Source of the DNA: Bifidobacterium olomucense | Lineage (GTDB): Bacteria > Actinomycetota > Actinomycetes > Actinomycetales > Bifidobacteriaceae | Direction of reading: 5' to 3' | NCBI RefSeq assembly: GCF_012932375.1 | Contig: NZ_JAAIIG010000005.1 | Location: 124,001-188,000, forward strand | DNA length: 64,000 nucleotides | Shown: piece after piece, positions 11,957-18,296 of the stretch | Numbering within the stretch: the first letter of the stretch is position 1 | How the letters are laid out: each line of letters starts with the position of its first letter | Made by a program: the position numbers and the translations under genes | The notes under the pieces: generated by a model | What the model was told of the DNA's origin: nothing | What the model saw: the letters and a program-made list of their open reading frames with translations, nothing else | Database searches by the model: none

Positions 11957-14194
11957 TCAGTTATGCGAACGGCGACGACGCGTGTGCTTGCGGATCAGGT
12001 ACTCCTGGCTGTCCACCAGCGGACGGCCTTCGTCGTCCTTGGTGTGCAGCACGTAAGTGCCATCGGGCTGCATATGCCAGCTCACGGTGGAATCGGCCAT
12101 CTGCAGATCCACGTACTTGATCAGTTCGTCGATCTGCTCCGGAGCAGTTATGCGCACCAGAGCCTCCACGCGACGGTCAAGGTTGCGGTGCATCAGATCG
12201 GCGGAACCGATGTACACCTCGGGGCCGGACGCCGGACCCTCGCCGATCTGCGGGCCGTCTGCGTTGCAGAAGGCATAGATGCGGGAGTGCTCCAGGAATC
12301 GGCCGAGCACCGAACGGACGCGGATGTTCTCCGACAGGCCCGGAACGCCCGGCTTCAGCGCGCAGATGCCACGCTCGACGATGTCGATCTTGACGCCAGC
12401 CTGAGAGGCGCGGTACAGCGCGTCAATGGTCTTCTCGTCCACGATCGCGTTGCACTTGATCTTGATCCAGGCTTCCTTGCCGGCGCGGGCGGCGTCCTCT
12501 TCGCGGCGGATGCGCTGGATAAGGCCGGTGCGTACGGTACGCGGGGCCACCAGCAGACGGTGGAAGCTGGACTTCGGTGCGTAGCCGGAGAGCTGGTTGA
12601 ACAGTCGGGTGAGGTCCTGGCCGACTACCGGGTCGCAGGTCAGCAAGCCCAGATCGGTGTACAGACGCGCGGTCTTCGGGTTGTAGTTACCGGTGCCCAC
12701 GTGGCAGTAACGACGCAGGCCGTCCGCCTCCTGACGCACCACCTCGATGAGCTTGCAGTGGGTTTTCAGACCCACGATGCCATACACCACGTGTACGCCG
12801 GCGCGTTCGAGCTTGCGGGCCCAGGCGATGTTGGCGTCCTCGTCGAAGCGTGCCTTGATCTCCACCAGTGCCAGCACCTGCTTGCCGGCGTGGGCTGCGT
12901 CGATCAGCGCGTCGATGATCGGCGAGTTGGAGCTGGTGCGGTAGAGCGTCTGCTTGATGGCCAGAACCTTAGGATCCGCAGCAGCTTGTGCCAGAAAGGC
13001 CTGGACGGACGTGGAGAAGGAGTCGTAGGGGTGGTGCAGCAGGATGTCGCGCTCGCGGATGGCTGCGAAGATGTCCTGCGCACGGCTCGACTCGACCTCG
13101 GCGATCTGACGGTTCGTGGTCGGCACAAACGGGCGGAACTTCAGGTCCGGACGATCCACGCCGCCGAGCTCGAAGAGCACGGTCATATCCAGCGGGCTCG
13201 GCAGGCGGTAGACCTCGTCCTGGCTCACGCCGAGCTGGTCGGCGAGCAGCTGGGAGAGGAACGGGCTGGTGGAATCGGTGATCTCCAGACGGATCGGCGG
13301 TCCGAAGCGGCGACGCAGCAGTTCCTTCTCCATGGCGTTGAGCAGGTTCTCGGCGTCGTCCTCTTCCACGTCGATGTCCTCGTTACGGGTCACGCGGAAG
13401 GAACGGGCTTCCTTGATGATCATGCCCGGGAACAGGGATTCGAGGTGGGCGGCGATGAGCTTCTCCATCGTGATGAAGCCGTAACGCTCGTCCTTGGACT
13501 CCTCGTCCGTCATATCGTCCACCGGCACGAGGCGCGGCAGGTTGCCCGGGATCTTGACGCGGGCGAAGTGGGACTTGCCGGAGGACGGGTTTTCCACGAT
13601 CACGGCAAGGTTGATGGAGCCGCCGGAAATGTAGGGGAACGGGTGGGCCGGGTCCACGGCGAGCGGGGTGAGTACGGGGAACACCTGCTGGCGGTAGTAG
13701 CGCGAGAGGCGCTCCTGCTCGGAGGAGGTGAGCTTATCCCACGTCAGCAGAACGATATGTTCCTTCTCCAGTGCGGGCAGCAGCACATCGATGGCGTAGT
13801 GCGCGTGCTCATCCTGAAGACGGTGTGCGGTTTCGCTGATGGCGCGCAGCTGCTGGCGTGGGCTCAGGCCCGCGGCGGACGGCACGGCGATGCCCGAGTC
13901 GATGCGGCGCTTCAGGCCTGCCACGCGGACCATGAAGAACTCATCGAGGTTCGAGGCGAAAATCGCGGCGAAATTGGTGCGTTCGAGCAGGGGCAGGTCT
14001 TCATTCTCCGCGCATTCAAGCACGCGCTGGTTGAACTTGAGCCAGCTCAGTTCGCGGTCGAAGAAGCGGTCCGGAGGCAGCGGTGCCTCGCCTTCCTTAT
14101 CGACGCGGCGGTCGTTCTTGTCGGTTTCGGCAATATGCTCTGCGATTTGGCTTCGCAGAATTGCCTTTGAGGGTGCGTCAAATATCTGTGCCAT
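11957..14194 (-). CDS. ppk: Polyphosphate kinase 1
   Basis: Reversible transfer of the ATP gamma-phosphate to polyphosphate. The 745 residues carry the PPK1 N-terminal region ([18 protein letters not shown]), the head domain, and the C-terminal phospholipase-D-like domains. The autophosphorylated His lies in [13 protein letters not shown], with [10 protein letters not shown] next and [10 protein letters not shown] near the end. The start ATG follows a minus-strand TACGAT by seven bases, so the mRNA is probably leaderless. It lies upstream of the Nudix/phosphatase gene on the same strand. Confidence 0.95.
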
Positions 14195-14440
14195 AGCCTA
14201 TATCGTAAGCTTTGCTGTGGCCGGAAACCTAGTGAACGCTCAAAATTCAGGAGCCGTTCATATTGGATTGCCTTGGTGGGGCGTGAAGGGCGTTGTATGT
14301 GCGACACGCCGTTGGATTCGCGGAATCGCACATGAGTGAACATCATACGGGTTCGAATTGAACGCTTCTGCTCGTTTGCGGCGGGCGGCGAAGTGCGATT
14401 GAACAGTTGCGATAAAAACCGAACATTGCCGGTGTGCGGG

Positions 14441-14469
14441 TTGCGGGAATCTGCTGTGGTGAATAGATT
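14441..14469 (+). promoter_or_regulatory. Promoter of the candidate structured RNA
   Basis: TTGCGG (14441-14446) and TAGATT (14464-14469) are separated by exactly 17 bases. Transcription would start around 14476-14478, exactly where the closing stem of the RNA begins. Confidence 0.6.
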
Positions 14470-14477
14470 ATGAGGTA

Positions 14478-14642
14478 CAAGAACAACTGAACAGAGCAGA
14501 GCCCACAAGTAGTGTATGGTCACGAGGACTGTTACGTTGGACGGGCATTGGAAAGACTTACCGTTACAACGATGATGTTGTGCAGAGATTCTGCTCCAGT
14601 AGTTGTTCTTGAGAAGAAAAGGCCCGCTCCGGCGGGCCTTTT
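14478..14642 (+). ncRNA. Candidate structured small RNA, about 165 nt
   Basis: The ends can pair: CAAGAACAACT (14478-14488) with 14601-14611, then after small bulges GAGCAGA (14494-14500) with TCTGCTC (14590-14596). An inner hairpin is ACAAC/GTTGT (14566-14581). A Rho-independent terminator follows at once (GGCCCGC/GCGGGCC, 14621-14638, flanked by AAAA and TTTT), and a well-spaced promoter precedes it. No convincing ORF fits. The 5'-to-3' closing stem recalls 6S-type RNAs. SRP RNA, tmRNA and RNase P signatures were looked for and not seen, so the class is unassigned. Confidence 0.6.
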
Positions 14643-14696
14643 CGTTTGTGCGCCGATGGGCGAGGTGAAAATCTGGGGTTATAGGGCTATAGGTTT

Positions 14697-15374: not shown

Positions 15375-15847
15375 CGGGAAAGGGCCAAAAGCTTGATGAG
15401 CCGGTCATGAGGCATGGTGGGGCTCGGCGTTGCGCGGCGGATGGGCGATGCGGATGACCCGATCGGTCGTGGCGGATGCCGTGGAACTGGGGCTTCATGG
15501 CAAACCGGCATGCAGCGGTGAAATCGGTGCTTTGCTGTGAATGAGGTGGTGTGAACGGTCTGATCGGCCAGACGTGCCTCGGAATAAGGGGCCTCAGAAG
15601 GGTGAGTAGCGCGGTCTGATCGGGTTTTGAAGACACTGCGGAAATCGGTGCTTTCCGGTGAATGAGCAGTTGCGAACGCTCCGCCGTTCAGTGGAACACC
15701 CGGTGGGCGGATAGCGCAAGACGCTCCGATCAACCATCCATGGGAACACTGTGGAATCGGCAGCGCTGTGGCACTGATGCGTCAATCGTGTTGAGGCGTC
15801 CGCGAACGATGCGGCGGAAGCAAGTCGAAACAGCTACAGTGGTGAGC

Positions 15848-17164
15848 ATGACGGAAATGCAGCGTGCTCCAGAAGGAATGTCGACCAAACCCCGCATCAG
15901 GCCCGCCGATGCGGATGACGACCGACCGGTCTCTATTTCCGCGCGTTTGGGACGTTTGCAGTTCCACCATTCCGGCAAATTCCGTGTGCTGCAAGTTGCG
16001 GATGTGCAGGATGGGCCGAAAATCGCCAAAGACACGATTACCCTTCTTGAAGCCAGTTTGGATGCCGCTCGCCCTGATGTGGTGATCTTCTCCGGCAATC
16101 AGATCGCCGGTTATGATCCGGCGTTCGCAGGATCCTTCCGCAAACGCCGTTGGAGCGAAGAGCCGATCGCTGAATCGGCGCTGGAACAAACTCGCGCTTT
16201 GGTGCGTCAAGCTGCCGAACAGTTGACGGCACCGCTTGCCGTTCGCGGCATTCCGTGGGCCATAACCTACGGCAATCATGATTTTCAGTGCGGCCTGAGC
16301 AATGCGCAATTGGACGCCATCTACCGTGAACTGCCCGGGTGCGTGAACCCGTCGACTCCATCGATCGCGGCGGGAACGCCAGAAACGCCGGAAGTTGCCA
16401 ATGCCCGGGAGCCGGTGCTGCCCCAGCAGACCATATATACCTCCAACCCACAGGAGCCGGGCACGTTCGCATTGCCTGTGATGGATATGGGTGGCTCGAA
16501 GGTCGCTCTTGGACTGGTTGTGCTGGATTCCGGCGACTATGTGCATGGCGGCGGTTTCGGTACGCCTTCGACGGCGGCCATGGAATTCCTGCGCAAGGTG
16601 CCGGGATTGGTCGGTGCCAAATCTGTGGTGTTCCAACATATGCCGCTGCCGGAGTACTACCAGGTGCTCAAGCCGGTGGCGGCCACTGCGGCCTTTGCCA
16701 TGCAAGGCTATCGTGATCATGCGGATACCTATTACACCTTGGATGATGAGCGTGTGCAGCCCGGCGGCTACCTCGGCGAAGGCATTTCCTGCCCGGACCG
16801 TTCAGAGGAGTTTGCGGTATTGCACGACAGTGAAGGCTACGTAGGTGTGGCTGCCGGTCATGACCATCGCAATGGATTCGTGGGCGAGTATGAGGGGTTG
16901 CTTTTGGCCGCCACGCCCACGTGCGGGTTCAACACCTATGGCCCGGCCCCGGCCAAGCGCGCCGTGAGGTTGATCGAATTCGACATTCGCCATCCGTATG
17001 AGCCGCGCACGCAACTTCTGGAATTCGGTGAGCTTGTGGGCAAGCCCAGCTCGCGTCGCGCATATACCTACGCCGTGAATCAGGCTACTCCCGGTGAAGG
17101 TGAAGGCGACGATCTGTTGCGCAGACCATCATTGTGGAGCCAGCTGACCGGATTATTCAAGTAA
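15848..17164 (+). CDS. Calcineurin-like metallophosphoesterase
   Basis: Predicted metal-dependent phosphoesterase of 438 residues. Visible metal-binding motifs are LQVADVQDG (first Asp), ITYGNHDF (GNHD), VVFQHMPLPEY, and GVAAGHDHRN near the C-terminus. No signal peptide is apparent, so it is probably cytoplasmic. I chose the ATG at 15848 because TACAGT (15835-15840) lies seven bases upstream, fitting a leaderless start; longer in-frame readings to 15662 have no ribosome-binding site and unusual composition. It stands alone between repeat-rich regions, and the substrate cannot be told from the sequence. Confidence 0.82.
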   Translation: MTEMQRAPEGMSTKPRIRPADADDDRPVSISARLGRLQFHHSGKFRVLQVADVQDGPKIAKDTITLLEASLDAARPDVVIFSGNQIAGYDPAFAGSFRKRRWSEEPIAESALEQTRALVRQAAEQLTAPLAVRGIPWAITYGNHDFQCGLSNAQLDAIYRELPGCVNPSTPSIAAGTPETPEVANAREPVLPQQTIYTSNPQEPGTFALPVMDMGGSKVALGLVVLDSGDYVHGGGFGTPSTAAMEFLRKVPGLVGAKSVVFQHMPLPEYYQVLKPVAATAAFAMQGYRDHADTYYTLDDERVQPGGYLGEGISCPDRSEEFAVLHDSEGYVGVAAGHDHRNGFVGEYEGLLLAATPTCGFNTYGPAPAKRAVRLIEFDIRHPYEPRTQLLEFGELVGKPSSRRAYTYAVNQATPGEGEGDDLLRRPSLWSQLTGLFK

Positions 17165-17495
17165 CTGCATAGCCATTGCGGTGGTCGGCTGTCAAAACTG
17201 GCAGGAAAACCTCGCTGGCGATGGTGTGGGCGAAGCTGTTATGCCAAACGCTGGCAGGCCGCCGCTCATAAGCAAGATTATTGAAGCCTCGCAGCCACCA
17301 GCTGGCAGAACTGCTTCATTTCCGATGCCATTGACAAAGGGAGCATGCCAAAAACTGGCACGCTCCCTTCGCTATTCCATATCTGAATGTATGTCCGAAA
17401 CGGTATTCCGTGCTGGCTCGGCGAATCAGCAAAACCGGGCGGATCAGTAGAATCCGCAGAGCCGCCGAACCGGGCGGATCAACCGAATCAGCCGT
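17165..17495. other. Intergenic region with hairpins and repeated CTGGCA words
   Basis: No gene is seen. The strongest structure is AAGGGAGC (17337-17344) with GCTCCCTT (17362-17369) around an inner TGCCA/TGGCA, a plausible terminator between the convergent phosphoesterase and IclR genes. Around 17265-17300 is a sequence resembling the intercistronic element at 5352-5381. ACCGGGCGGATCA occurs twice near 17436-17480. Confidence 0.5.
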
Positions 17496-18296
17496 TCAGC
17501 GAACCGCCTTGACCAACGCCTCGGTCAGGTATTTGCCAGCGGCCATCACCAGCGGTGCGTAACGGCGTCCGGGGGCGGCGCCCATACGCCCGGTCGGGCC
17601 GGAAATCGAGATCGCCGCAATGACCTGTCCAGACGCATTGCGGATCGGCGCGGAAATCGAGCACACGCCATCTTCACGCTCGTTGACCGATTCGGCCCAG
17701 CCACGCTTGCGGACTGCGGCCAGCTTGGTCGCGGTGAACTTGGCGTGACGCAGTCCCTGATGAAGACGGTCGGAATCCTCCCAGGCCAGCAGAATCTGTG
17801 CAGCGGAGCCGGCCTCCATGGACAGCATGGCACCCACGGGAATGGAATCGCGCAGACCGGAGGCGCGCTCTACGGCGGCAATGCACACACGCTGATCGCC
17901 CTGACGGCGGTAAATCTGTGCGGATTCGCCGGTGCGGTCCAGCAAGGTCTGCAGAATCGGGCCGGCGGCGGTCAGCAGACGGTCCTCGCCGGCGGCTGCG
18001 GCGAGCTCGGCGAAACGGGAGCCCAGTACGAAACGACCGTGCTGATCGCGCAGCACGAAACGATGGCGCTCAAGTGCGATTGCCAGACGATGTGCGGTGG
18101 GGCGGGCGAGGCCGGTGGCGGCGACCAGCTGGCCCAGGGTGGAAGGGCCGGACTCCAGCGCATCAAGAATCTTCACGGTCTTGTCAAGTACGCCGACGCC
18201 GGAATGAATCTCTCCGTCGTCCTTCGAGGCTGTCGTATCGCCCTGTTCGGGGGCGGTCAAATTGTTGTCAAGCGGTTCTTCTTCGGAATCAGTCAT
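17496..18296 (-). CDS. IclR-family regulator, probable leuCD regulator
   Basis: Regulator of 266 residues with a disordered acidic N-terminus, then the IclR winged helix (GPSTLGQLVAATGLARPTAHRLAIALERH) and the C-terminal effector domain (GDQRVCIAAVERASG, ISAPIRNASGQVIAAISISGPTGR). It is divergent from leuC. The actinobacterial LtbR/NdgR group of IclR regulators controls leuCD from exactly this position, so leucine-linked regulation is a strong inference. No clear ribosome-binding site precedes the ATG; an upstream CATAAT could support a near-leaderless start. Confidence 0.88.
   Translation of the reverse strand: MTDSEEEPLDNNLTAPEQGDTTASKDDGEIHSGVGVLDKTVKILDALESGPSTLGQLVAATGLARPTAHRLAIALERHRFVLRDQHGRFVLGSRFAELAAAAGEDRLLTAAGPILQTLLDRTGESAQIYRRQGDQRVCIAAVERASGLRDSIPVGAMLSMEAGSAAQILLAWEDSDRLHQGLRHAKFTATKLAAVRKRGWAESVNEREDGVCSISAPIRNASGQVIAAISISGPTGRMGAAPGRRYAPLVMAAGKYLTEALVKAVR

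Follow-up and report, generated by a model that had tools for sequence, protein, structure and literature searches.

The Ms1 RNA (Rfam RF02566) is known as MTS2823 in Mycobacterium tuberculosis and as scr3559 in Streptomyces coelicolor. This 6S-like actinobacterial RNA binds core RNA polymerase, lies near the replication origin and is transcribed towards the origin in 84% of cases (PMC4191392). Its flanking genes carry the annotations HAD-IB hydrolase, CpaE or chromosome partitioning (PMC9130861). According to a survey of 2022, Ms1 is absent from Bifidobacterium; none was found there because the syntenic gaps that the survey recognised were too short (PMC9130861). In corynebacteria, CoRP is an unrelated polymerase-binding RNA able to replace Ms1, and the 2024 RIP-seq paper expects Bifidobacterium bifidum to hold an undiscovered polymerase-binding RNA as well (PMC11077062). 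So far, both 6S RNA and Ms1 have been reported missing from bifidobacteria. RNA-seq of B. animalis subsp. lactis yielded 11 sRNAs, none of them listed beside ppk or cpaE (PMC4338058).

The DNA analysed here, referred to as the window, is a stretch of 64,000 nucleotides from Bifidobacterium olomucense. It contains a structured RNA gene next to the polyphosphate kinase gene ppk (11957-14194, reverse strand), which is a conserved neighbour. The RNA gene is present in nearly all members of the genus and offers a concrete candidate for the RNA predicted in B. bifidum.

The RNA gene, its signals and its fold

The RNA gene occupies positions 14477-14643 of the forward strand, with a predicted transcript of about 166 nt and a likely start at A14477. 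The covariance model R1 matches it at G000:C34:138477-138645, corresponding to window positions 14477-14645, with an E-value of 5.6e-37. The putative promoter consists of a -35 element TTGCGG (14441-14446, forward strand) and, after a 17-nt spacer, a -10 element TAGATT (14464-14469, forward strand) placed 7 nt ahead of the start. A TTGC-type -35 element is present in most of the 93 homologs, and the place of the -10 element is taken in them by CATAAT, GATAAT or TAGATT. All 93 homologs carry a promoter-like sequence 6-10 nt ahead of the first stem (P1), with scores far above those of shuffled upstream regions; a score of 9-10 of 12 was reached in 40 of the 93, where about one would be expected from the shuffled upstreams. 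An intrinsic terminator (14617-14642, forward strand), made of an 11-bp stem and a terminal U run, closes the gene, and all ten of its modelled pairs show double changes in homologs. To the extent that sequence can tell, the locus is a genuine, independently transcribed RNA gene with its own promoter and terminator. The preliminary description had proposed a promoter with a 17-nt spacer, a start at the base of a stem and a Rho-independent terminator, and these signals recur throughout the homologs.

The region 14441-14642 (202 nt, terminator included) folds better than 200 of 200 shuffled sequences (z = −3.77). For the RNA body without the terminator, z was −2.55 and 3 of 200 shuffles were equally good. 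The consensus fold comprises, in order, the closing stems P1 and P2, a short RCC loop, a CACAA:UUGUG stem (P3), two hairpins (P4 and P5) and the terminator. The 5′ strand of P1 (14478-14488, forward strand) forms 11 bp with 14601-14611, with double changes in all nine pairs tested; in relatives this stem consists of 4-5 bp, a 2 × 2 internal loop and a further 4 bp. The 5′ strand of P2, GAGCAGA (14494-14500, forward strand), forms 7 bp with 14590-14596, with double changes in all seven pairs. The 3′ strands of both stems thus lie together at 14590-14611 (forward strand), as indicated by the fold and by covariation. These are the 11-bp and 7-bp closing stems read earlier from the single sequence, and the paired ends have been kept in relatives.

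The segment GCC CACAA (14501-14508, forward strand) supplies the 3-nt loop and then the 5′ strand of P3 (14504-14508), whose partner is UUGUG at 14578-14582; this segment includes the CCCAC motif. P3 is paired in 99.1% of cases and is nearly invariant, so it gives no covariation information. P4 is the hairpin UGGUC-ACGAG-GACUG (14517-14531, forward strand), with double changes in five of five pairs. P5, CGUUGGACGG / CCGUU-A(bulge)-CAACG (14535-14571, forward strand), is a bulged 10-bp hairpin that is 97.9% paired and has four pairs with double changes; its 16-nt loop (14545-14560) is partly conserved, with a conserved CUUA at the loop end.

Covariation was assessed in 93 aligned sequences against 500 shuffles. 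The share of paired cells was 94.5% versus 81.9% in the shuffles, cells changed on both sides numbered 496 versus 122.5, and the covariation score was 0.411 versus 0.173; none of the 500 shuffles reached any of these values, which are to be read with the alignment having been fitted to the structure of the model, somewhat in favour of the fold. Sliding the partners lowered pairing to 34-50%.

Folding of the single sequence gives an inner fold of GCCC:GGGC plus a CRAC:GUUG hairpin, which is not the structure supported across the family. The inner hairpin of the preliminary description, also drawn from one sequence, gives way in the consensus to CACAA:UUGUG, P4 and P5. The segment GUUGUG (14577-14582) can pair either with CACAA (14504-14508) in P3 or with CRAC (14567-14570) in a local hairpin; as each of these partners hardly varies among homologs, the RNA may be able to switch conformation.

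At the gathering thresholds, the window has no match in Rfam. At E ≤ 10 the window gave chance terminator-type matches and neither 6S nor Ms1 (RF02566), so the search against Rfam that had been suggested for placing the RNA did not place it in either family. As the RNA fails the RF02566 model, it is not filed there. A covariance search of the whole genome found no 6S RNA (RF00013), which leaves the niche of such an RNA open. The locus thus represents an RNA family that covariation supports and Rfam 15 lacks, and its description as an unassigned structured RNA stands.

Distribution and genomic neighbourhood

Of 37 genomes of the genus, 33 carry the RNA gene by DNA search; one further match, the 34th, comes from outside the Bifidobacteriaceae and covers the terminator alone. 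A covariance model built from 30 homologs detected the RNA in 159 of 189 Bifidobacteriaceae genomes, almost always in one copy. Among genomes of good quality it is present in 146 of 161. The RNA occurs in 8 of the 16 genera of the family, and several of the genera that lack it have genomes of only 0.7-1.2 Mb. Outside the Bifidobacteriaceae, 248 genomes of the order and 396 of the phylum yielded only weak, partial or terminator-like matches. The RNA has been kept for the age of the Bifidobacteriaceae.

The models found no convincing copy in the fairly complete genomes G029, G008, G077, G086, G148, G159 and G175, where the RNA is either lost or very diverged. A few of the genomes without a hit, such as G029, are complete Bifidobacterium genomes. 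In genome G113, two equally scoring copies in opposite orientation were found on one contig (C1:52376-52539 and 183902-184065). This assembly is flagged as 8% contaminated, and the double copy could be artefactual or could have arisen by inverted duplication in the recent past.

The neighbours were mapped by tblastn of ppk, CpaE and TadA across the loci. Of the 83 loci with both neighbours inside the fetched stretch, 80 have the RNA between ppk and cpaE-tadA. In 34 loci, belonging to other genera and to some Bifidobacterium (e.g., B. avesanii), the RNA shares the strand of ppk and runs opposite to cpaE, and several genera have it 42-70 nt ahead of ppk. In 46 Bifidobacterium loci the RNA is inverted relative to this arrangement. 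The divergence from the ppk operon pointed out earlier thus describes the window and most Bifidobacterium, and does not extend to the other genera and the few Bifidobacterium with the RNA on the ppk strand. What characterises the RNA is consequently its linkage to ppk and cpaE, not divergence from ppk.

In the subclade of the window, metallophosphoesterase and IclR genes (15662-18296) replace cpaE-tadA beside the RNA, and the tadA gene of this genome is on another contig, C35.

The RNA is near the origin and points towards dnaA in all 12 complete genomes of the genera g25 and g35, at a distance of 130-324 kb from dnaA where this could be computed. In Bifidobacterium it is near the origin yet points away from it in 14 of 15 genomes.

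Comparison with Ms1 and the possible function of the RNA

The tad locus of 40 other actinobacteria was used for comparison. In three Cellulomonadaceae-like genomes (family f8), the gene order is ppk, further genes including one for 660-668 amino acids, the Ms1 interval, a gene in the HAD position, cpaE and tadA. The gene for 660-668 amino acids stands in the Acs position; both Acs and HAD were assigned from size and position. The ppk products of these three genomes are 67.8-68.7% identical to that of the window. In mycobacterium-like L304, the Rfam Ms1 model matches the corresponding interval of the tad locus, and the match and cpaE are on opposite strands. If the genes separating ppk from cpaE were lost, Ms1 would come to lie exactly where the bifidobacterial RNA is, on the same strand. 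By eye, no HAD or Acs remnants were recognised in the 11 Bifidobacteriaceae loci with listed ORFs. The linkage of ppk with tad/cpaE occurs also outside the Bifidobacteriaceae, in the f8 loci L312-L314, and is thus older than this family.

The bifidobacterial RNA shares with Ms1 its location beside cpaE-tadA near the origin, its strand and, in the tested genera other than Bifidobacterium, its transcription towards the origin. Both have a primary-sigma-type promoter (recognised here from its sequence), a start at A, a terminator, a long closing stem and an internal junction, represented here by P1/P2 and the P3-P4-P5 arrangement of the covariation-supported fold. The CCCAC motif is common to both and is invariant in the Cellulomonadaceae-like Ms1. 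In contrast to Ms1, the bifidobacterial RNA fails the Rfam model, measures about 166 nt as against about 300 nt in mycobacteria, is flanked by ppk without genes in the HAD and Acs positions, and is inverted in most Bifidobacterium.

The Ms1 RNAs of 19 f8 genomes were aligned, and model R3 was built from them. Their fold contains closing stems, an ACC loop, a P3 starting with CAC, a P4 hairpin, a two-part P5 and P3′, with covariation of 0.237 versus 0.123. Applied to six further families, R3 finds the tad-locus Ms1 of seven genomes (E-values from 4e-8 to 1e-4) and gives no match to the bifidobacterial RNA. A model built from Bifidobacteriaceae only (R2) gives a weak full-length alignment with the L340 Ms1 (10.5 bits, E = 0.14, a rough E-value), and its P4-P5 part aligns, also weakly, with the Ms1 of L328-L330 (E = 0.41-0.66, likewise rough). 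Four of the six R2 matches at E ≤ 2 fall on Ms1 cores, which account for about 2% of the searched sequence; three of the four are close relatives. Matches of the P4-P5 type were found neither in 96 kb of control loci nor among 13 other f8 Ms1, and a loose search for Ms1 motifs in GC-rich loci returned mostly noise.

Compared with the f8 Ms1 (L328-L347; genera in PMC9130861), the bifidobacterial RNA has the same helix order through to the terminator, a core of similar length (about 114 nt), P4 and P5 that R2 aligns in L328-L330 and L340, and ppk in the neighbourhood. The f8 Ms1 differ in having CACGC:GCG(CC)UG as P3 and a short P5 loop, and most of their sequences are beyond the reach of the models. 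The case for common descent with Ms1 comes chiefly from position, strand, orientation to the origin and layout, to which the sequence comparison adds suggestively.

Taken together, the RNA is probably a short, diverged positional ortholog of Ms1 in the Bifidobacteriaceae that sequesters the polymerase core; we give this reading a probability of roughly 0.64. It is somewhat better than an even bet that bifidobacteria have a compact Ms1-like polymerase-binding RNA, of about half the length, docking through the invariant P3 and the bulged P5 and mostly inverted in the genus. According to this model, the RNA would be transcribed from a primary-sigma promoter and would accumulate when growth slows, as Ms1 does. 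Free core RNA polymerase would receive the P3-P4-P5 junction in its nucleic-acid cleft, with contact probably made by the bulged P5 and the almost unvarying P3. Polymerase would be held in reserve until growth resumes, as by Ms1 in Mycobacterium smegmatis.

An RNA of independent origin, binding polymerase or forming another ribonucleoprotein as CoRP does in corynebacteria, is rather unlikely. Failure of both the Ms1 and the 6S models, the replacement of Ms1 by CoRP elsewhere (PMC11077062) and the conservation of sequence on both strands of P3 and P5, which suits protein binding, would all agree with such an origin. Like CoRP, the RNA is a candidate polymerase binder in an actinobacterium without recognisable Ms1; CoRP, compared here by its description only, differs in being about 500 nt long and located between tRNA genes (PMC11077062). 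The exact Ms1 interval, strand and orientation to the origin, together with the shared CCCAC motif and P4-P5 layout, argue for descent from Ms1 instead. That the RNA regulates mRNAs in trans by base pairing through the conserved P5 loop is unlikely. An RNA with its own promoter and terminator and a partly conserved 16-nt loop could act in this way, but conservation peaks in the paired segments P3 and P5, both ends are sealed in P1, unlike those of most such sRNAs, and no anti-Shine-Dalgarno seed was evident by inspection.

The preliminary description had compared the RNA with 6S-type RNAs because of the long-range pairing of its 5′ and 3′ ends. It also resembles 6S RNA (RF00013) in size, 6S measuring 150-210 nt, and in having an internal junction with a single-stranded region. 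A true 6S RNA too diverged for Rfam, which would bind the sigma-A holoenzyme and template product RNAs, is nevertheless highly improbable, given the lack of a 6S match at any threshold tried, the small hairpin on the 5′ strand of the junction, a different internal layout and a genomic place that is that of Ms1. The covariance model therefore does not bear out 6S itself, whereas membership in the polymerase-binding class is indirectly supported by its sharing the place, strand and layout of Ms1. Least probable of all is a cis-acting leader or attenuator of ppk. The RNA is found upstream of ppk in nearly all genomes, and where it shares the strand of ppk, as in several genera, the short distance between them would fit a leader. 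In the window and in 40 other loci the two are on opposite strands, the RNA's own terminator stops it before ppk, and several genomes have retained the RNA without ppk next to it; the inversion led us to reject this explanation.

If the Ms1 reading is confirmed, fewer small genomes would seem to have lost Ms1, the locus would show how short an Ms1-type RNA can be, and a handle on stationary-phase polymerase management in gut bifidobacteria would be gained. Even with a different function, it constitutes a covariation-supported RNA family new to Rfam 15.

Sequence elements upstream of the RNA

LexA has been reported at the Ms1 locus of M. tuberculosis (PMC4191392); no LexA box was found upstream of the homologs of the bifidobacterial RNA. 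A direct repeat, GAACA-N15-GAACA, with copies 20 bp apart (14401-14425, no strand assigned), is situated upstream of the RNA promoter, between it and the divergent ppk, and is present in many Bifidobacterium homologs too. Among RMACA pairs upstream of homologs, 20 bp is by far the commonest spacing (23 pairs, the next commonest having 6). The repeat is a possible candidate site for a regulator. In another genus (L073, L074, L077, L080 and L082), the element TGTGAAGATTC lies about 70-85 nt upstream of the RNA and may be the site of another regulator.
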